From positions 1 through 42,782 of the forward strand of contig JABHVN010000039.1 of assembly GCA_018658265.1 (NCBI GenBank): 42,782 nt of DNA, in the 5' to 3' direction. Below the pieces are notes generated by a model. That model was given only the letters and a program-made list of their open reading frames with translations, was not told the origin of the DNA and searched no databases. A program made the translations under genes and the position numbers. The stretch is from Candidatus Woesearchaeota archaeon. Its GTDB lineage: Archaea > Nanobdellota > Nanobdellia > SCGC-AAA011-G17 > UBA489. Of this stretch, positions 1 through 13,745 are shown in pieces (position 1 is the stretch's first letter; each line of letters opens with the position of its first letter).

Positions 1-360
1 ATGACCCATTTCTCTACAAATCTGTGCAATAAGCCTGTATTCTGTATCTGCAACTCTTTTTAATTTACAATTAAGATAAATAATTTTCAAATTAAGATTG
101 CTTTCCTTTGCAACTTCAGCAATTTGATTAGTCACATGTTTTACGGCTAAAGTTTTTCCAGTACCAGTCTTGCCATATAAAAAAATGTTACTTGGACGCT
201 CCATACGCAAGGAAGGTGCGAGAATACCTGCTAGAGAGTTAATTTGATCTTCTCTATAAGGAACATTTTCAGGAGTATAATTAGATTGTAAAACTTTCTT
301 ATCTTTGAATAAACCCTCTTTCTGGGCGTAATCTCTTAGAAAATCTTTAACATCAACCAT
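1..360 (-). CDS. cdc6: Orc1/Cdc6 replication initiator (5' part, gene runs off the left edge)
   Basis: The minus strand reads open from an ATG at 360 to the window edge, giving 120 N-terminal residues. A Walker A loop GKTGTGKT lies at residues 63-70, preceded by PENVPYREDQINSLAGIL, the usual N-terminal signature of archaeal Orc1/Cdc6 (peptide near YxPExxPxRExQ, then the AAA+ core). This family binds origin recognition boxes and loads the MCM helicase. Two ORB-like elements flank AT-rich DNA directly upstream (415-693), the normal archaeal arrangement of initiator gene next to its origin. The sensor motifs and the C-terminal winged helix lie outside the window, so a full-length gene cannot be confirmed. 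Confidence 0.93.
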   Translation of the reverse strand, partial: MVDVKDFLRDYAQKEGLFKDKKVLQSNYTPENVPYREDQINSLAGILAPSLRMERPSNIFLYGKTGTGKTLAVKHVTNQIAEVAKESNLNLKIIYLNCKLKRVADTEYRLIAQICREMGH

Positions 361-1438: not shown

Positions 1439-1702
1439 ATGGCAGAAGAAGAAAAAAACTATTCAAAACAACTTCTAGGTAAAACCGTTGTAACTAAAAC
1501 AGGTAAAAGATTTGGGGAAGTTGGAAACATTTCATTCGAAGTTAGAACAGGCGAATTAATGCAAATAGTTCTAAAAAGTCCTACAACTTATACAGAGGGA
1601 TTAGACTTAGAAAGAGACTCTAGTAACAATTTACTTATTCCATATTCTTCAGTTATTGCAATTGGCGATTTCGTTGTTGTTGCAGAAGAAGACATACTTT
1701 AA
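1439..1702 (+). CDS. PRC-barrel domain protein
   Basis: An 87-residue protein that is almost entirely one PRC-barrel. Typical features are the GKTVVTKTGKRFGEVGNISFEVRTGEL start, the IVLKSP strand and the IPYSSVIAIGDFVVV end. Stand-alone archaeal PRC-barrel proteins are common and thought to act in RNA metabolism or as adaptor modules; the exact role is unknown. A TATA-like TTTATATA at about 1407-1414 lies ~27 nt before the ATG, fitting a leaderless transcript. It is followed after 26 bp by lonB on the same strand. Confidence 0.9.
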   Translation: MAEEEKNYSKQLLGKTVVTKTGKRFGEVGNISFEVRTGELMQIVLKSPTTYTEGLDLERDSSNNLLIPYSSVIAIGDFVVVAEEDIL

Positions 1703-1728
1703 TTTTTTAAAATTTTATATTTCATAAA

Positions 1729-3609
1729 ATGGCTAGTCTAAAATCTCCTAAGAAGTTTAAAACAACTAAAGACATTGATACTAGTACTTCTATCGTAGAT
1801 CAAGTTATAGGTCAAGACGAAGCAATTAACATTATTAAGAAGGCTGCAAGGCAAAGAAGAAACGTACTTCTAATTGGTGAACCCGGTACAGGTAAATCTC
1901 TGACAGGACAAGCTTTAGCAGACTTAATTCCCGAAGGAGAATTAGACGATGTATTATCAATAGACAATCCTTCGGATGAACATCAACCCTTAGTAAGAAC
2001 ATTTCCAAAAGGTAAGGGAATAGAACAAGTTAATAGATTAAAGATTGAATCTCTTAAACAATTCAAAGGTCAAATGATCTTTTTCTACATCTTAATAGTA
2101 ATATCCCTTTTTTCACCTTGGTGGGTTAGAAAACAATATGGAGATATTATGGCAGCAGCTTCATTAATTTCTTCTATGATGTTTATTGCAATATTTGTAT
2201 TATTCATGAACTTAAATAAAAAGGCAAGAAAAGGTGTAAAAGTTCCAAAAGTATTGATTGATAGTTCAAAGAAACACAAAGCTCCATTCATAGATGCAAC
2301 AGGAAGTCATGCAGGTGCATTATTAGGAGATGTTCTACATGACCCATTACAAAGTGGAGGGTTAGGAACTCCTGCATATGAAAGGTTAGTTCCAGGAATG
2401 ATTCATAAGGCAAACAAAGGCGTATTATTCATTGATGAAATTGGAAATATGAACCCAGTAACTCAACAAGAGATACTTACTTGTATGCAAGAGAGAAAGT
2501 ATCCTATTACAGGTCAATCTGAAAGATCTTCTGGAGCAATGGTTCGTTCTGAAGAAGCACCTACAGATTTCATTCTAGTTGCAGCAGGAACCCCAGACAC
2601 AATAAAGAAAATGAATCCTGCATTAAGATCTAGGATTAGAGGATATGGTTATGAAATCAATATGAATCATACTATGGATGACACTCCAGAAAACCAATAT
2701 GGTATTGCAGTATTTGTAGCACAAGAAGTTAACAAAGATAAGAAAATTCCTCATTTTACTAAAGATGCAGTTGATCAAATTGTACAAGAAGCAAGAATTA
2801 GATCCAGTACTTCTAAAAAACTAACATTAAGGCTAAGAGAACTAGGTGGTTTAGTAAGGGCTGCAGGAGATTTAGCATTAGAAAGCAATTCTAAATTCGT
2901 TCAAGGTAAACATGTTATGCAAGCAAAGAAATTTGCAAGAACCTTAGAACAACAAATGGTTGACAAATACATTGAAAACAAAAAGAAGTATGAAGTTATT
3001 GTAACAACTGGTTCACGTGTTGGACGTGTTAATGGACTTGCAGTAATGGGTTCAGATTCTTATTTCTCAGGTTTAGTTTTACCTATTGAATCAGAAGTAA
3101 CGCCTGGAGGAAAGAGGGCAGAATTTATTGCAACAGGTAAACTTGGAGAGATTGCAAAAGAAGCTGTTCAAAATGTTTCAGCAATTATTCTAAAATACTT
3201 TGGAGAAGACATCAAAGAAAAGTATGATATCTTTATTCAATTCTTACAAACCGCATCAGAAGCAGGAGGAGTAGAAGGAGACTCAGCTTCAATAGCTGTA
3301 GCAACTGCAATTATTTCTGCTCTAAAGAATGTACCCATTAAACAAAATGTAGCAATGACTGGATCCCTATCTGTTCGTGGAGAAGTTCTAGCTGTTGGAG
3401 GAGTTACTCAAAAAATAGAAGCTGCTATCCAAGCAGGAATAAAGAAAGTAATCATACCAAAAACAAATGCCAAAGATATTATCCTATCTCCAGAAGACAA
3501 AAAGAAGATCAAGATCGTTCTAGCAGATAGACTAGAAACAGTTCTTGAAGAAGCTCTTGAATGGAAAGGCCATGAAAGTATTCTAAGGAAAATTAAGAAG
3601 GTTAAATAG
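1729..3609 (+). CDS. lonB: Membrane-anchored archaeal Lon protease (LonB type)
   Basis: ATP-dependent serine protease of the archaeal LonB type, 626 aa. The AAA+ core has Walker A GEPGTGKS (residues 50-57) and Walker [10 protein letters not shown] (232-240). Between them lie two hydrophobic segments (about 114-132 and 143-163), the hallmark of archaeal LonB and its anchor to the inner face of the membrane. The C-terminal protease domain has the catalytic Ser in GDSAS (S519) and the catalytic Lys in TQKIEAA (K562). The Ser-Lys spacing of 43 equals that of bacterial Lon. It degrades damaged or regulatory proteins and, in archaea without FtsH, is the main membrane protease. All key residues are intact. 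Confidence 0.97.
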
Positions 3610-3651
3610 ACCAATCGTAAGTTTTATAACCTCTTCAGATTCAATCACTCT

Positions 3652-4104
3652 ATGATAATTCATTTCACATTAGACAAAATATCTGTTGATAAAACAGGAC
3701 AAATAAAGGGTAAAATAGAAGCTAAGAACGGTATCAAGTTTTTAGACATAGCAGAATCCCCTACACCTGAAGGAATCACAGGTCAATCACTATTAAAATT
3801 CAAATTTTCTTACAAGGTAGACTATTTACCTGATGTAGCTAAGACTGAGATAGTAGGAAAAATCCACTTTCTAACAGACAAAGCAACTAAAGACAAGATC
3901 TTAGAGGACTGGGATAAACATTCCAAGATCGAACCCTCACTTTCTGGCCAATTAGTTAACTATGTTTTCTCCAAGTGCGGAGTAATGGCATTAACTTTGT
4001 CCCAACAAGTAGGCTTACCACCTCATATATCCTTACCAAGGATAGCATTGAAGCAAAAAGCTACTGAAAGTGATGAAAAAGATAACAAACCTAAGGCTTC
4101 TTAG
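3652..4104 (+). CDS. Conserved archaeal protein of unknown function, 150 aa
   Basis: No named family that I can assign. It opens with a beta-rich region (IIHFTLDKISVDKTGQIKGK; KFSYKVDYLPDVAKTEIVGKIHFLTD), then a helical stretch with KDKILEDWDK. It ends with a conserved-looking core, FSKCGVMALTLSQQVGLPPHI, followed by a charged disordered tail. The general pattern (strands then helix, LPPHIPLP-like motif) resembles a small family seen in many euryarchaeal and DPANN genomes and is loosely reminiscent of SecB-like folds, but that is a guess. It follows lonB after 42 bp in the same direction. Confidence 0.8.
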   Translation: MIIHFTLDKISVDKTGQIKGKIEAKNGIKFLDIAESPTPEGITGQSLLKFKFSYKVDYLPDVAKTEIVGKIHFLTDKATKDKILEDWDKHSKIEPSLSGQLVNYVFSKCGVMALTLSQQVGLPPHISLPRIALKQKATESDEKDNKPKAS

Positions 4105-4153
4105 GCCCTTTTTCCATTAATTTTATATATTTGTTTGTAGTGCCCACTATGTT

Positions 4154-4720
4154 ATGTATATACGAACAAAGACCAGAAAAAACAAATCTGGTGATGAAAG
4201 GAAATATGCATACCTAGTCTTCTCAAAACGTCGTAAAAAAAGTAAGCGTCCGCCAAAACAACGATTTTCTAAGTATTTAGGCCGTGTTATCGAACTATTT
4301 CCGGCACCTAAGCAATGCCAAACAATGCCAAACAATGCCAAACAATGCCAAACAATGCCAAACAATGCTCCTCAAACGCCGTCTGAGTCAATCGTACAGA
4401 TGTTTAAGCAGCTTTTGCTTTCTGCGGAATTTCAACGAGTAAACAAGCATATCTTCCGGAGAGGAGACGTTGAAGTGGACCTTTCCGTATTAACCGTAAA
4501 GAGCATTGAGACAGGTCAACAGCTATGTATACAGGCAAATGAGGGTTTCATTTCCAAGTATACGCTACGTAAAATCGTGAGGTACAAGCCTCCTGAGACA
4601 ACCGAGAAGGAAATTGGACAAGATCTTGCTAAGAGGCTGCTCTCGTCAGGCCTAAAACCTTCTCAAGAGGTATTTCTAGCCCTGTACTACCAAATATTGA
4701 AAAATCTCCACAGGAAATAA
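4154..4720 (+). CDS. Unknown basic protein with an internal decanucleotide repeat
   Basis: A 188-residue protein. The strongly basic N-terminus (YIRTKTRKNKSGDERKYAYL then SKYLGRVIEL) resembles the N-terminal segments of some archaeal IS-type proteins, but no catalytic domain follows. Residues 53-72 are encoded by six 10-bp units and read as KQCQTMPNNA-type repeats. The C-terminal ~110 residues are a mixed alpha/beta region I do not recognise. Arg is often encoded by CGT/CGG here, unlike neighbours that favour AGA, suggesting recent acquisition. TTTATATAT about 27 nt upstream supports the ATG at 4154. A gain or loss of one 10-bp unit would shift the frame. Confidence 0.7.
   Translation: MYIRTKTRKNKSGDERKYAYLVFSKRRKKSKRPPKQRFSKYLGRVIELFPAPKQCQTMPNNAKQCQTMPNNAPQTPSESIVQMFKQLLLSAEFQRVNKHIFRRGDVEVDLSVLTVKSIETGQQLCIQANEGFISKYTLRKIVRYKPPETTEKEIGQDLAKRLLSSGLKPSQEVFLALYYQILKNLHRK
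4311..4370 (+). repeat. Decanucleotide tandem repeat, AACAATGCCA, inside a gene
   Basis: Six consecutive 10-bp units, four of them perfect AACAATGCCA (4321-4360), the outer two diverged. Because 10 is not a multiple of 3, the encoded peptide repeats every three units (10 residues). Confidence 0.97.
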
Positions 4721-4747
4721 TGGGGTCCATCAACAATCATCAACAAT
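4702..4747 (+). repeat. 46-bp exact direct repeat, copy 1
   Basis: Identical to 5050-5095. It starts AAATCTCCACAGGAAATAAT and runs into CAACAATCAT units. In this copy the first 19 bases encode the last codons and stop (HRK, TAA) of the gene ending at 4720. Confidence 0.95.
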
Positions 4748-4780
4748 CATCAACAATCATCAACAATGCCAAACAATGCT
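4731..4780 (+). repeat. Decanucleotide tandem repeat, CAACAATCAT, intergenic
   Basis: Three perfect CAACAATCAT units followed by CAACAATGCC and AAACAATGCT. The array lies between the two repeat-containing genes, so the same family of 10-mers occurs in three neighbouring places. Confidence 0.95.
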
Positions 4781-4841
4781 TCTAAACTGTTACTACGGGT
4801 AAGTTTTATATAATCCTAAAACCTCCATAATACACCTTAAA

Positions 4842-5534
4842 ATGGCGGACGAAACTAACTTATTTATGGAAAAAGTACGAAATTCTTTCTCTAATGCCAA
4901 AAATGACATTGCCAGACTGGAAAATAGCCTATTAAACTTAAAAACCTCAGTAGAATCAAATAAAGAAGACATTTCAACCTTTAATTCTAAGATAGATAGC
5001 TTAAACAAAGGGATAGCTGAAATAAAGGATATATTGAGTACATTTAAAGAAATCTCCACAGGAAATAATGGGGTCCATCAACAATCATCAACAATGATCA
5101 ACAATGATCAACAGTCAACAAGCAATGCCAAACAATACCAATCAATGCCAAACAATGCTAGGCAACCAATTTCAAGAGAAATCCCTTCTAATTTACCTAA
5201 AAAGACCTTACAAGCTCTCGAGCTTGATTTTGAGATGCAGTTCAGATCTCTCACAGATAGGGAATTCTCCGTATTTATGACTATTTTAGAGCTTGAGAAG
5301 CAAGGGCATGTAGTTAACTTCCCCCTCGTTGCTAACCACCTAAACGTCACAGAAACGACTGTAAGAGGCGTAGCTAATCGTTTAATCTCTAAAGGCCTAC
5401 CTGTGAAGAAAGAGCGCCATTTCAATGGCAAAACCTCACTTTTAATCAAAGAAGCATTTCATGACCTAAACCTTCTAAACAAATTAGTTCGTTTGAGAGG
5501 AAATCCTTCTGATCAAAGAACATTATTTGATTAA
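4842..5534 (+). CDS. Coiled-coil / winged-helix protein with an internal decanucleotide repeat linker
   Basis: 230 aa with three parts. Residues 1-75 are heptad-like coiled coil (KVRNSFSNAKNDIARLENSL onwards). Residues 79-107 are a Q/N/S-rich linker encoded by the 10-bp repeats. Residues 135-205 form a winged helix (LTDREFSVFMTILELEKQG, NVTETTVRGVANRLISKGL, then the wing). The likely role is DNA binding as an oligomer. The C-terminus QRTLFD resembles a truncated PCNA-interacting peptide, a weak hint only. The related gene at 6172 shares the coiled-coil-linker-winged-helix plan without the repeats. TTTTATATAA about 30 nt upstream supports the ATG. Confidence 0.8.
   Translation: MADETNLFMEKVRNSFSNAKNDIARLENSLLNLKTSVESNKEDISTFNSKIDSLNKGIAEIKDILSTFKEISTGNNGVHQQSSTMINNDQQSTSNAKQYQSMPNNARQPISREIPSNLPKKTLQALELDFEMQFRSLTDREFSVFMTILELEKQGHVVNFPLVANHLNVTETTVRGVANRLISKGLPVKKERHFNGKTSLLIKEAFHDLNLLNKLVRLRGNPSDQRTLFD
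5050..5095 (+). repeat. 46-bp exact direct repeat, copy 2
   Basis: Same sequence as 4702-4747, but here it lies inside the coiled-coil/winged-helix gene and is read in a different frame, encoding STGNNGVHQQSS. Confidence 0.95.
5077..5160 (+). repeat. Degenerate decanucleotide repeat in the linker of the winged-helix gene
   Basis: About eight 10-bp units of the ACAATSATCA / AACAATGCCA family, more diverged than the array at 4311. They encode the Q/N-rich linker between coiled coil and winged helix. Confidence 0.9.
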
Positions 5535-5641
5535 ATCCTTCTTTTATCTCTCACTTTTCCAATTTGAAACAGTTTTTGACCTATTTGCCAAATTCTTTAC
5601 TATCATTTATTGTCCGTCGACGCTTCATATATCTCCAGATT

Positions 5642-5665
5642 CTCCAAAAATAGATACTTTTGGAG
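5642..5665. other. Perfect 8-bp-stem hairpin
   Basis: CTCCAAAA (5642-5649) and TTTTGGAG (5658-5665) are exact reverse complements around an 8-nt loop. It could be a terminator for the upstream gene or a protein-binding palindrome. Confidence 0.6.
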
Positions 5666-6033
5666 CCATGCTCCTATAGGTATCCCTCACTTTTCCAAAA
5701 TAAGGTCCATATCCAGACCTTTTTCACACATTTAGTGCACCTATTCATCTCCATTATGCCTACCTTTCAACCCTCATTTATGCTTATTTGAGTTGATATG
5801 CTCCCCATTCCTCACTTTCTTAGTTTAGAGGTCCTATTCAACCCTATTTATGTAGAAATAGTCCTCCTTACACACTCCCATTCTAACCCTCACTTAAGCC
5901 CAATCGAAAGAATTTAGCCTTTTTTCACCCGTCGACTAAGTTTTCATTACGCGTCGACGACCATTTTCTCACTTTTCTCACTTTCGTAAAAATCACGATT
6001 TATGCGTCGATTCCGTCGGTAAACACCTATTTT

Positions 6034-6051
6034 CTTTATAAATAACGTCGA
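6034..6051 (+). promoter_or_regulatory. TATA box with adjacent CGTCGA motif, copy 1
   Basis: CTTTATAAATAACGTCGA, differing at one position from the copy at 6142-6159. Its predicted start of transcription (~6062) falls in the phased array. Confidence 0.55.
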
Positions 6052-6109
6052 TTAACGCGTCTACGATGCGTCGACGAACCGTCTACGACACGTCTACACG
6101 CGTCTACGA
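6046..6109 (+). repeat. Helically phased CGTC(G/T)ACGA array
   Basis: Cores start at 6046, 6058, 6069, 6080, 6091 and 6101, i.e. spacings of 12, 11, 11, 11 and 10 bp, all in the same orientation. Consensus CGTCKACGA; the copy at 6046 is CGTCGATTA and that at 6091 CGTCTACAC. Further isolated copies occur at 5615, 5930, 5952, 6005 and 6154. Spacing near one helical turn places all cores on one face of the DNA, as expected for a cooperatively bound protein. Confidence 0.9.
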
Positions 6110-6141
6110 ATGTACAGGGACGTCTCCTACACTTGACATAC

Positions 6142-6160
6142 CTTTATAAATGACGTCGAC
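6142..6160 (+). promoter_or_regulatory. TATA box with adjacent CGTCGAC motif, promoter of the 6172 gene
   Basis: CTTTATAAATGACGTCGAC. The TATA is ~25-30 nt before the ATG at 6172, so the transcript should be leaderless, and the CGTCGAC core lies between TATA and start codon where a bound protein would repress. Confidence 0.65.
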
Positions 6161-6171
6161 ATGTAATTTGT

Positions 6172-6822
6172 ATGGGGTTTTTATTCTTCGGAAAAAAGAA
6201 ATCAAAAAAGTCAGAGGTTAACGAAGCACTCGCACATGTGAATCAAATCTCCGACAACTTGAAACATTCCTTCGTAAGGATCAAGTCAGACATCAAAGTT
6301 GTCCGTGATTGGCTTTCTTTTTTCAAAACAAGGGATGAAGACTACTCCAAAAGATTCATTGACATGGAATCCAGGATAGAAGAGATCGGTCAAGTCATGA
6401 CATACCTAGCAGAAAGGGAGAATGTTGTCGAAAAACAACCAAAAGTTCAAGAAAAAAGTAAAGAGCAACCATACTACCCTAAAGAAAGTAGTAATTTACC
6501 TCCAAGAATGGAACGAACTCCCTTAGATGACTTAACTGAAACTCAAAAAGCCATATTTTTTAGATTGGGTGTCTTTCAAAGAGAGTCTGGACAGGAATGG
6601 ACAGCTCTTAAAACATTGGCTACGGACCTCTACCCTGGAAAATCCTACGATAAGGTAAGATCCACTGTTTCTGAGTATATTGGAATTTTAGTTGACGCAG
6701 GCTTGATCCATAAGTTAAGAAAAGGTAAACAGACGTATTTGGCCATTACAGAGAAAGGGAAGACATATTTCAAAGGTAATGAAGCCAAACAACCAGAAAA
6801 AATAGAGCCTAAATCTAAATAA
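6172..6822 (+). CDS. Coiled-coil / winged-helix protein
   Basis: 216 aa. A short hydrophobic-basic N-terminus (MGFLFFGKKKSKK) is followed by a coiled coil at about 15-85, a proline/charged linker at 86-118, and a winged helix at about 120-200 (LTETQKAIFFRLGVFQ, SYDKVRSTVSEYIGILVDAG, wing KLRKGKQTYLAITEKG). The motif LKHSFVRIKSDI in the coiled coil resembles VRNSFSNAKNDI in the 4842 protein and TKNSFSRVREKH in the 13921 protein, so the three look related. It is the gene directly downstream of the phased CGTC array and the most obvious candidate to bind it. The last 8 bp overlap the convergent kinase-like gene. Confidence 0.85.
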   Translation: MGFLFFGKKKSKKSEVNEALAHVNQISDNLKHSFVRIKSDIKVVRDWLSFFKTRDEDYSKRFIDMESRIEEIGQVMTYLAERENVVEKQPKVQEKSKEQPYYPKESSNLPPRMERTPLDDLTETQKAIFFRLGVFQRESGQEWTALKTLATDLYPGKSYDKVRSTVSEYIGILVDAGLIHKLRKGKQTYLAITEKGKTYFKGNEAKQPEKIEPKSK

Positions 6823-7471
6823 TTAAGTCTAAATCCCCAACATTCTTTGGAAGAACACCTTCCGTACTAAAAAAATCATTAATATCTTGCTTATCAAGAG
6901 GATTCCCTTTTCTCCATCTACTAAAATCAAAAAAAGTTACTTGTCCTTCTCTGTCATAAACAGTGTTTAGGTCATGGCAAGTCTCATCAGTAGGCCTGTA
7001 GCCGTTGTTCATTGCATATGTAATGTCTCTAATAAAATTCCTTATGGCTGAAGGATGCTCATTTTCATGTAAATCTTCGAAATCTCTCATCCCTCCAAGT
7101 TGGCCCATAATCACTGCAGGAACACATTTACCGCCAATATAGTGGGGATTCCCTTCCAATGGAGATCCAAAAGTTAATGTTCTATGCATTTTTGGAACAT
7201 TTAAACCAATATTTTCAAGACCTTTCCCAATACTCAGTTCATGATTTGCCAAGTCCTCAAGAGGGATTAAATCTAATGATGCAGGTACGCCATGTTTAGC
7301 CTGTTCTTGCATAGAGTAAACTGGAAGGGTTGCTCCCTCTGTATAAATCTTAATCACACATGGCTCGCCAAATGGCTCGCTCATAGCTTCAGGAAGAATA
7401 TACACCCTAGATTCACTTCCAGAAGGATATTTTTCTCCGCCAGTTATTTTTTTAAATGCAGCTTCTATCAT
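6815..7471 (-). CDS. Protein-kinase-like phosphotransferase
   Basis: 218 aa with the sparse signature of the kinase-like fold. VIKIY carries a candidate ATP-anchoring Lys (K41). HDLN (166-169) looks like the catalytic loop, and FFDFSRW (180-186) supplies the metal-binding Asp in a DFG-like position. The spacing is short and the glycine loop is weak, so it would be an atypical small kinase (RIO/aminoglycoside-kinase-like superfamily) of unknown substrate. It lies 45 bp downstream of the Fic gene in the same direction, probably co-transcribed. Function as an active kinase is inferred. Confidence 0.6.
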   Translation of the reverse strand: MIEAAFKKITGGEKYPSGSESRVYILPEAMSEPFGEPCVIKIYTEGATLPVYSMQEQAKHGVPASLDLIPLEDLANHELSIGKGLENIGLNVPKMHRTLTFGSPLEGNPHYIGGKCVPAVIMGQLGGMRDFEDLHENEHPSAIRNFIRDITYAMNNGYRPTDETCHDLNTVYDREGQVTFFDFSRWRKGNPLDKQDINDFFSTEGVLPKNVGDLDLII

Positions 7472-7516: not shown

Positions 7517-8542
7517 TTAAATTTTTTCAATATCATACCTTCCAGTATAAGCCCTACTGTCTAATGCTGAGACTATTGATTTCTCACACAAGTCTCCTCT
7601 AACCACTAAAACGCCTTTTTTTCTATCTACAACTTTAACTTGCCCCGTCTTAATGCCTCCTCTAAATATTCCATGCAACTTTCTCTTAGCCCCTAGAACG
7701 TAACCAGCATGATTGAAGTCAGGACCTTTCAATGTAATTTGATATTCAGGATAAGGCTGAGAATCCCTTAAACGGGTGTCTAAGGCACTTGAAACTTTAA
7801 CAGCATTAAATTCATGGAATACTCTTTCCCTATCACTAATGTCTTCTGGACAAGCCCATGCTAATTCAAAACCTAAGTCTCCTTCCCTAACCTTGTAACC
7901 TTTCCATGCACCAAAAAGAATTGTTTGATACAAAGCTCTCTCGCTTTCCTTGATGAGCAGAGGTGCATAATCTTCCTGGCCCAATACCAAATTTGCTAAA
8001 ATTCTTGAAGTTCTCTTATTTCCATCGTTAAATGGCTGTATTCTTGAAGCATGTAAATGTAAAAGTGATGCATTTTCTACAGGATGTAGTTCTCCAGAAT
8101 TAACAACTTCCAATAAAGCGCCCAAATCTCTATCAATTTTTTCAGACCTAATTGGAACGATACTTGTTCCTTGCATCATTACACTCCCTGAACGAAACCC
8201 TCTAACTTTGTTAGGTTCAATTCTTTCAGCAATTTCCATTAAAAATCTTGGAGTGAATTCTCCATCGTAATTTGATTTTGCAAAATTCCAGGCATGTTTT
8301 AGGTTTGCCTTTCCCTCTCTAACAGTTTCTCTAGCCCTTTTCTTCTCTTTATGAGATCCCTGTTTTTCCAATAAATGGCCTTCTTCTAACAAGTAAGAAT
8401 TTTCTAAAGCTTCATCTACAAGCCCCTCGACAACCAAAGAACAGTGATTGGACTTTTGTTCACAGTTTTCTTCAAGTCTTAATTTTTTCCTATCTATCCT
8501 TTCCAGAGTATCTCTATCAATTAACATGCGATCATTAAACAC
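7517..8542 (-). CDS. Fic-domain protein with Gln in place of the catalytic His
   Basis: 341 aa. The Fic core at ~155-180 ends in IQPFNDGNKRTSR. The canonical motif is H-P-F-x-(D/E)-G-N-(G/K)-R; here position 169 is Gln, checked in the nucleotide sequence (CAG). The rest of the anion- and Mg-binding loop is intact. An N-terminal SLVVEG (35-40) matches the (S/T)xxxE(G/N) auto-inhibitory helix of class II Fic proteins. The ~90-residue C-terminal extension is unrecognised. Fic enzymes transfer AMP or other phospho-groups to proteins, and loss of the His usually abolishes this, so the protein may be inactive, a regulator, or use another chemistry. The kinase-like gene follows. Confidence 0.88.
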   Translation of the reverse strand: MFNDRMLIDRDTLERIDRKKLRLEENCEQKSNHCSLVVEGLVDEALENSYLLEEGHLLEKQGSHKEKKRARETVREGKANLKHAWNFAKSNYDGEFTPRFLMEIAERIEPNKVRGFRSGSVMMQGTSIVPIRSEKIDRDLGALLEVVNSGELHPVENASLLHLHASRIQPFNDGNKRTSRILANLVLGQEDYAPLLIKESERALYQTILFGAWKGYKVREGDLGFELAWACPEDISDRERVFHEFNAVKVSSALDTRLRDSQPYPEYQITLKGPDFNHAGYVLGAKRKLHGIFRGGIKTGQVKVVDRKKGVLVVRGDLCEKSIVSALDSRAYTGRYDIEKI

Positions 8543-12884: not shown

Positions 12885-13745
12885 ATTCTTGATAATCTAG
12901 AAACAGAATTAAAAATTAGAGGTTACTCTGATGTAACAATTAAAAATTACATTAGACAGAACACTGAATTCCTTAATTTTATTCAAAAGCCAGTTAGACA
13001 AATTAAAGAGCAAGACCTCAAACAGTATATTGCTCACTTAATGACAAAAAAACAACTAAAACCTGCTTCAGTCAACCTTGCTTTATCATCAATTAAGTTT
13101 TATTTCAAAGAGATTGTAAAAAGGAACATTGCAAGCGGCATAAAGGCCCCAAAAATTGAAAAAAAGCTTCCAACTGTACTTTCAATGGACGAAATTAAAA
13201 GTCTCTTAGGCGCAACGAATAACGCTCGTCAAAGACTTCTCATAGAACTACTTTATTCTTCAGGATTAAGAGTTTCCGAAGCAGTAAAATTAGAAGTTAA
13301 CGACTTAGATTTAGCAGAAAACATGGGAACTGTCCGTGCAGGTAAAGGGAAAAAAGATCGTAACATTATTTTATCTAAAAGTTTTGTAAAAGCCCTTAAA
13401 GTATACCTAGAAGCCCGTGAAATAGAGTCTAAATTTATCTTTAATTCTCGTAATGGACACTTAACTGAAAGAATGGCACAGAAAATTGTTAATGAATCTG
13501 CAGACCGTGCAGGAATAAAAAAACGTGTACACTGTCATGTATTAAGAAGTTCGTTTGCAACACACTTACTTGATGCTGGAACAGACATTAGAGTTATTCA
13601 AGTACTGTTAGGGCACTCAGATATTTCAACAACACAACGTTACACAACAGTTTCAAGAAAACAATTACGTAAAGTAAAAAGTCCCTTGGATGTATTGAAA
13701 ACTTCTGATAAAGAATTAAAAGTTTTAAGCAATTGGTTGAAATAA
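12885..13745 (+). CDS. xerA: XerA tyrosine recombinase (apparent ATT start)
   Basis: 286 aa if begun at ATT 12885, the usual XerA length. The first in-frame ATG (13041) would remove the whole core-binding domain, which is clearly present upstream (LDNLETELKIRGYSDVTIKN...). The catalytic set is intact: SSGLRVSE (R129), the GKGKKDR lysine, HVLR (H218, R221), GHSD (H244) and the nucleophile in TTQRYT (Y253). The LRHS motif is LRSS here. XerA resolves chromosome dimers at dif during replication and can be used by integrating elements. A stop (12876-12878) bounds the frame on the 5' side. Confidence 0.93.
   Translation: MLDNLETELKIRGYSDVTIKNYIRQNTEFLNFIQKPVRQIKEQDLKQYIAHLMTKKQLKPASVNLALSSIKFYFKEIVKRNIASGIKAPKIEKKLPTVLSMDEIKSLLGATNNARQRLLIELLYSSGLRVSEAVKLEVNDLDLAENMGTVRAGKGKKDRNIILSKSFVKALKVYLEAREIESKFIFNSRNGHLTERMAQKIVNESADRAGIKKRVHCHVLRSSFATHLLDAGTDIRVIQVLLGHSDISTTQRYTTVSRKQLRKVKSPLDVLKTSDKELKVLSNWLK

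Follow-up and report, generated by a model that had tools for sequence, protein, structure and literature searches.

The contig JABHVN010000039.1 of a Candidatus Woesearchaeota archaeon (GenBank assembly GCA_018658265.1), whose 42,782 nucleotides make up the window analyzed here, begins with orc1 on the minus strand. This is followed by an AT-rich stretch, a short unassigned gene, genes for a PRC-barrel protein and LonB, two further unassigned genes, and then wHTH1, a helically phased array of short repeats (array A), and wHTH2, both genes encoding winged helix-turn-helix (wHTH) proteins. An earlier note on this DNA, made from its letters, had singled out the array. Array A and the features of the adjoining wHTH2 gene are listed here by window position.

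5614 to 6020 (+): scattered array-A type cores (5615, 5930, 5952, 6005 and 6014), upstream of array A
6034 to 6043 (+): first copy of the TATA-like CTTTATAAAT, followed by the array-A core at 6046; seen in the sequence as a direct repeat
6046 to 6109 (+): array A, six CGTC(G/T)A cores at steps of 12, 11, 11, 11 and 10 bp; recognized by its sequence, as the sole exact cluster in the genome, and by its conservation upstream of wHTH2
6142 to 6151 (+): second copy of CTTTATAAAT; probable wHTH2 promoter with a leaderless start at 6172, a role suggested by its spacing
6154 to 6160 (+): array-A core CGTCGAC between this TATA-like box and the start codon, a position that would permit autorepression
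6172 to 6822 (+): wHTH2, the putative array-A binder, with an N-terminal MGFLFFGKKK patch, a predicted coiled coil (residues 12 to 83) and a predicted winged helix (117 to 192)
6646 to 6696 (+): predicted recognition helix of wHTH2 (residues 159 to 175), marked by co-variation with the array word and by a predicted helix

The six CGTC(G/T)A cores start at 6046, 6058, 6069, 6080, 6091 and 6101 on the plus strand, with positions and steps exactly as the earlier note had claimed. The complete word CGTCKACGA occurs in four of the six only (6058, 6069, 6080 and 6101); the core at 6046 reads CGTCGATTA and that at 6091 reads CGTCTACAC. The isolated copies reported nearby are also present, comprising the five scattered cores and a related core at 6154 on the downstream side of the array. 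With up to one mismatch allowed, the window holds 13 matches to CGTCKACGA versus 1.95 expected (standard deviation, 1.42), a number reached in 0 of 100 shuffles. A search for further clusters, which the note had suggested, found none: the entire 617-kb assembly contains five exact copies, all on one strand within the 158 bp from 5952 to 6109, and the motif is not scattered. For the nine cores from 6005 to 6154, the best period is 10.7 bp, with a phase coherence of 0.91 (Monte Carlo P = 0.0014). CpG dinucleotides are indeed enriched relative to the surroundings, with an observed/expected ratio of 2.64 at 5900 to 6170 versus 0.49 for the whole window. Array A is intergenic, since the preceding gene ends at 5534 and the next starts at 6172, and an Rfam search of positions 3600 to 7000 returned no match.

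With the window protein as a query, wHTH2 was identified in 52 of 61 genomes, and a profile recovered it from 88 of the 99 genomes of the order, including 46 of the 47 of high quality. Paired copies of the exact array-A words lie just upstream of wHTH2 in 10 of the 61 genomes, our own included. Other lineages have different words (of the TACGA/CGACGA, CGGTAA and CACTGA/CACTTA types) at the same place and spacing. We used a test blind to the word itself, in which 5-mers that reappear 10 or 11 bp further on are counted and compared with dinucleotide-shuffled sequence (positive at P <= 0.05), and divided the wHTH2 genes into those with a window-type DNA-binding domain ("long") and those with a shorter, different HTH ("short"). 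A phased array with a 10- or 11-bp lag lies directly upstream of 54 of 64 long-domain genes, compared with 1 of 22 short-domain genes; other lags gave medians of 0 to 1 versus 7.5. Short-domain genes lacking the upstream array have in-gene repeats just before the HTH instead (lags of 10 to 12 bp; 18 of 41 genes), and such repeats are found in 0 of 66 long-domain genes. The array thus seems to have been relocated between coding and upstream DNA along with an exchange of the DNA-binding domain. The short-type genes (loci L087, L092, L093 and others) are mostly convergent with wHTH1, with in-gene repeats such as GTTCATGAACG.

To ask which protein reads the array, we compared 6-mer profiles of the arrays, with no preset words, to the similarity of wHTH2 at each column, correcting for overall similarity. 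The best segment was residues 158 to 175 (partial Mantel r of about 0.51 to 0.54; permutation standard deviation, 0.05, and maximum, 0.17), and no other part of wHTH2 approaches this correlation. T165 was the top column, joined by Y169, T124, V162 and E168. In the predicted structure, residues 159 to 175 form the helix before the wing, i.e., the recognition helix; the mean predicted local distance difference test score of this model is only 62, rising to 75 to 85 in the winged-helix domain. As a specificity control, the same helix was compared with the unrelated repeats of wHTH1 (array B, described below), which gave only about 0.10 versus 0.51 for array A. Residues and words also fall into matching classes. 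Of 26 cases combining T165 and E/D168, 24 have TACGA/CGACGA words; for T165 and Q168, 14 of 15 have words of the CGGTA type, and for M/L165, 9 of 13 have the CACTNA type. These word classes were picked after inspection, whereas the column test was unsupervised. On a LonB tree, helix class and word class agree in 24 of 24 cases, with six changes each. When independent pairs were tested on the trees of wHTH2, LonB and wHTH1, most changes of word and helix ran in parallel, but the pairs were too few for significance; some M/L165 pairs have no word change, and a few run in the opposite direction on the wHTH2 tree.

As array word and recognition helix vary in step from lineage to lineage, wHTH2 very probably binds array A, and we hold the array and this binder, taken jointly, to be well supported, with little room for doubt. 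The earlier note had put forward two local winged-helix proteins, those encoded at 6172 and 4842. The former fits array A, and the latter (wHTH1) fits different arrays. We do not favor wHTH1 as the array-A binder, since array A does not vary with its recognition helix. The note's general idea of a one-face array for a cooperative local winged-helix protein, acting as an operator or a centromere-like site, gains from an array that follows wHTH2 and co-varies with its helix. A plasmid origin finds no support, given vertical conservation and a phage and plasmid search with wHTH2 (tblastn) that returned no match.

Classification of wHTH2 holds at the level of fold rather than family. Searched against PDB sequences, it comes closest to the partition protein AspA, a marginal match (E = 0.0016 over 45 residues). 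A fold search gave no match at E < 0.001, its weak matches including TubR (6aht; E = 0.029), and Pfam gave only weak, sub-threshold HTH matches for both wHTH proteins of the window. A hydrophobic, aromatic N terminus followed by Lys/Arg is present in 90 of 107 wHTH2 proteins versus 2 of 100 wHTH1 proteins.

The second winged-helix gene, wHTH1, has arrays of its own.

4728 to 4777 (+): array B1, 10-bp TCAACAATCA repeats upstream of wHTH1
4842 to 5534 (+): wHTH1, the putative array-B binder, with a coiled coil (residues 2 to 74), a predicted disordered linker (74 to 118), a winged helix and a C-terminal QRTLFD tail
5076 to 5158 (+): array B2, the 10-bp repeats of B1 again, here within the wHTH1 gene where it encodes the predicted disordered linker

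The array-B words (TCAACAATSA/CAAACAATGC) are unrelated to those of array A and are unique in the genome apart from one match with two mismatches. A spacing of 10 to 11 bp does not make a whole number of codons, so the in-gene repeats cannot simply mirror a repeated peptide of that length. Their periodicity exceeds that of synonymous-codon shuffles in 39 of 85 wHTH1 genes at P <= 0.05 (33 at P <= 0.01), with a median of 0 in a control region, and the peptides encoded by these arrays vary between lineages. The column leading the co-variation of wHTH1 with array B, G176, falls in the predicted recognition helix (171 to 183), with a weaker signal than that of wHTH2. A fold search with wHTH1 identified only MarR-like wHTH proteins, and the family is present in 202 of 279 genomes of a sample of the phylum. 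Its C-terminal tail has a conserved Q-x-x-L(F) motif (73 of 100 orthologs), which we take to resemble PCNA-binding peptides.

Both wHTH genes lie close to the probable origin of replication, here as in other orders of the class, and the origin region of the window has the following features.

1 to 360 (-): orc1, N-terminal part only, as the contig ends within the gene
415 to 695 (no strand assigned): probable oriC, an inverted pair of elements like the origin recognition box (ORB), at 415 to 440 and 668 to 695, flanking AT-rich DNA; recognized from the sequence
1439 to 3609 (+): the PRC-barrel protein and archaeal LonB, conserved neighbors between oriC and the array genes

The elements at 415 to 440 and 668 to 695 presumably correspond to archaeal ORB sequences. 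Array A is about 5.4 kb from this ORB-like, AT-rich region in front of orc1. Among the genomes of the order with a wHTH gene and a strong Orc1 match, both are on one contig in 32 of 45, within 11 kb in 26 and within 17 kb in 30; the remaining 13 have them on different contigs, and in several of these Orc1 lies at the end of its contig. Among families elsewhere in the class (f60, f73, f85 and f93), wHTH1 is at most 10 kb from a single Orc1 gene in 16 of 18 cases, often at 1.5 to 2.5 kb. The neighborhood is also retained: across 51 loci, wHTH1 is near wHTH2 in 48, the family of the gene at 3652 is present in 43, LonB in 39, a Xer-like recombinase in 35 and the PRC-barrel protein in 33. Conservation beside orc1 in relatives was a check that the note had proposed: throughout the order, the array accompanies wHTH2, and the wHTH genes are linked to Orc1. 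Comparison across genomes gives good support to the array and its conservation, as well as to the pairing with wHTH2 and the linkage to Orc1.

We favor, with a probability of about 0.45, the reading that this locus is an autoregulated, origin-linked complex for partition or anchoring, working like parC-ParR or tubC-TubR. The wHTH2 protein, encoded directly downstream of array A, would bind the array cooperatively. With units one helical turn apart, its molecules would line up along the same DNA face, and their coiled coils could then pack into a filament or a wrapped complex. It would also limit its own synthesis by autorepression, which is probable because array-A sites overlap the wHTH2 promoter region, with cores beside both TATA-like boxes. 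The hydrophobic and basic N terminus of wHTH2 may attach the complex to the membrane, and wHTH1 with its upstream and in-gene arrays would complete a nucleoprotein locus beside oriC, whose main job would be centromere-like partition or anchoring of the origin region. Also in favor of this reading are the N-terminal patch of wHTH2, its marginal match to AspA, and the Xer-like recombinase and PRC-barrel protein among the conserved neighbors. Binding itself, the filament or oligomer, autoregulation, membrane attachment and the segregation role (the last at that same probability) are what we infer. Somewhat more doubtful is the further idea of a previously undescribed chromosome-maintenance system in this archaeal class, built from a pair of winged-helix proteins with coiled coils. 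Each would have a phased array beside oriC, upstream of its gene or within it; wHTH2 would link the origin region to the membrane, and wHTH1 perhaps to the replication clamp, without a motor of the ParA, actin or tubulin type.

Several points weigh against a partition or anchoring complex. Neither a tubulin- or actin-like motor nor a ParA-type ATPase, the trait of SegAB and ParABS, was found among the conserved neighbors of the wHTH genes in the 51 loci. At a threshold of E = 1e-10, a ParA/MinD-like AAA_31 protein is present in 30 of 41 genomes but is missing from 11, our own among them. The array overlies the promoter of the gene that it tracks, as a simple repressor would also have it. The membrane role is read from composition, and the fold search with wHTH2 is unspecific. 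Lastly, word changes on the trees are few, and no phylogenetically independent test is significant, owing to shared ancestry and too few independent pairs.

One alternative, which we consider unlikely, is that array A serves wHTH2 merely as an autoregulatory operator and takes no part in segregation or replication. The array lies immediately upstream of wHTH2 with cores beside both TATA-like boxes, one of them (6154) between the box of the putative promoter and the start codon; it follows the gene through relatives, and one operator per genome suits a self-regulating protein. However, the arrays of short-domain wHTH2 and of wHTH1 are in coding sequence, 200 to 300 bp past the start, which is unusual for operators. 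A self-repressor also needs no long coiled coils, conserved N-terminal patch or tight Orc1 linkage across families, and a purely self-regulating protein would hardly be kept in 46 of the 47 good genomes.

A further alternative is that the arrays are iterons controlling the initiation of replication, with wHTH1 and wHTH2 helping or restraining Orc1 in the manner of lambda O or a plasmid Rep protein. This is a serious rival, because the in-gene arrays recall ori-lambda and one wHTH2 ortholog (L060) weakly matches phage initiation families (PHROG 270 at 6.6e-6 and the O-like PHROG 678 at 0.005), yet on balance we find it quite improbable. Plasmid iterons are also helically phased, and both the linkage to Orc1 and the wHTH1 tail reminiscent of PCNA-binding peptides would suit replication control. 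Against this, Orc1 and ORB-like elements are already available to the host for initiation, array A is separated from the probable oriC by 5.4 kb with genes in between, and L060 is the sole ortholog to match these families, the window protein not among them. Finally, a chance minisatellite or mobile-element remnant, which the direct repeats, the G+C and CpG content above that of the surroundings and a nearby Fic-domain gene might suggest, is rejected as very improbable, given a position conserved through the order with changing words, the co-variation with the recognition helix and the lack of any phage or plasmid match.

Known systems share parts of this arrangement. TubR, a winged-helix protein, represses its own gene and binds direct repeats (tubC) located upstream of it (PMC5016525). 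As in TubZRC, a short-repeat array here lies upstream of the gene for its putative binder, a winged-helix protein of the TubR type at fold level; unlike TubZRC, there is no tubulin-like motor gene beside wHTH2, the locus is chromosomal and linked to oriC, the array word differs between lineages and appears to co-evolve, and two wHTH proteins have separate arrays. ParMRC has short-repeat arrays upstream of its operon, split around the promoter in R1, and its binder autoregulates and wraps DNA (PMC5016525), but ParR is a ribbon-helix-helix protein and the ParM motor is absent here. AspA of the Sulfolobus plasmid pNOB8, like wHTH2 an archaeal winged-helix protein and its marginal best match, is a partition protein that binds upstream of its own gene and spreads (PMC5120986); however, it recognizes one 23-bp palindrome rather than a phased array, and the ParB and ParA genes that follow aspA do not follow wHTH2. 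In SegAB of Sulfolobus, a chromosomal DNA-binding protein has sites upstream of its own operon (PMC5120986), but the sites of SegB are palindromes and its partner is the ParA-like SegA; no such pair occurs here. Lambda O binds repeated sites within its own gene at ori-lambda (PMC5043065), which resembles the repeats inside wHTH1 and short-type wHTH2 genes, although the lambda sites are 19-bp inverted repeats and those here are direct units of 10 to 12 bp. The locus would work like a partition site, yet we do not assign it to a known partition family, because the conserved neighborhood has no motor or ParA-type gene and AAA_31 is not universal.

To our knowledge, there is no account of chromosome segregation or positioning in DPANN archaea. 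Among the papers searched, we found no description of a two-protein wHTH/array locus and none joining Woesearchaeota and iterons. Archaeal segregation is poorly understood even with SegAB, and DPANN are not covered by a review of the topic (PMC7617429). The phased-array arrangement may be how these archaea hold or pass on their chromosome. Since the locus supplies a concrete protein pair, DNA sites and candidate specificity-determining residues in a mostly uncultured group, it is testable with purified parts. It also offers a natural data set for protein-DNA recognition, with dozens of winged helices and their own words, and binding arrays that would shape the amino acid sequence of an encoded linker are unusual in a cellular chromosome.

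A few further observations concern the surroundings. The gene at 4154 to 4720 contains a perfect 5.6-copy array of CAATGCCAAA (4313 to 4368, +) that encodes QCQTMPNNA repeats and is mostly absent from relatives of that gene. Bases 1 to 344, the N terminus of orc1, recur at the start of another contig (C11) and differ there by a few per cent; either strains vary at a break between contigs or orc1 is present twice. The small PRC-barrel protein (1439 to 1702) adjoins the probable origin. A Xer-like tyrosine recombinase is encoded at 13041 to 13745, and in three loci (L083 to L085) its gene apparently ends directly before wHTH2. Directly downstream of wHTH2 in the window lie an unassigned gene (6815 to 7471, -) and the gene for the Fic-domain protein (7517 to 8542).
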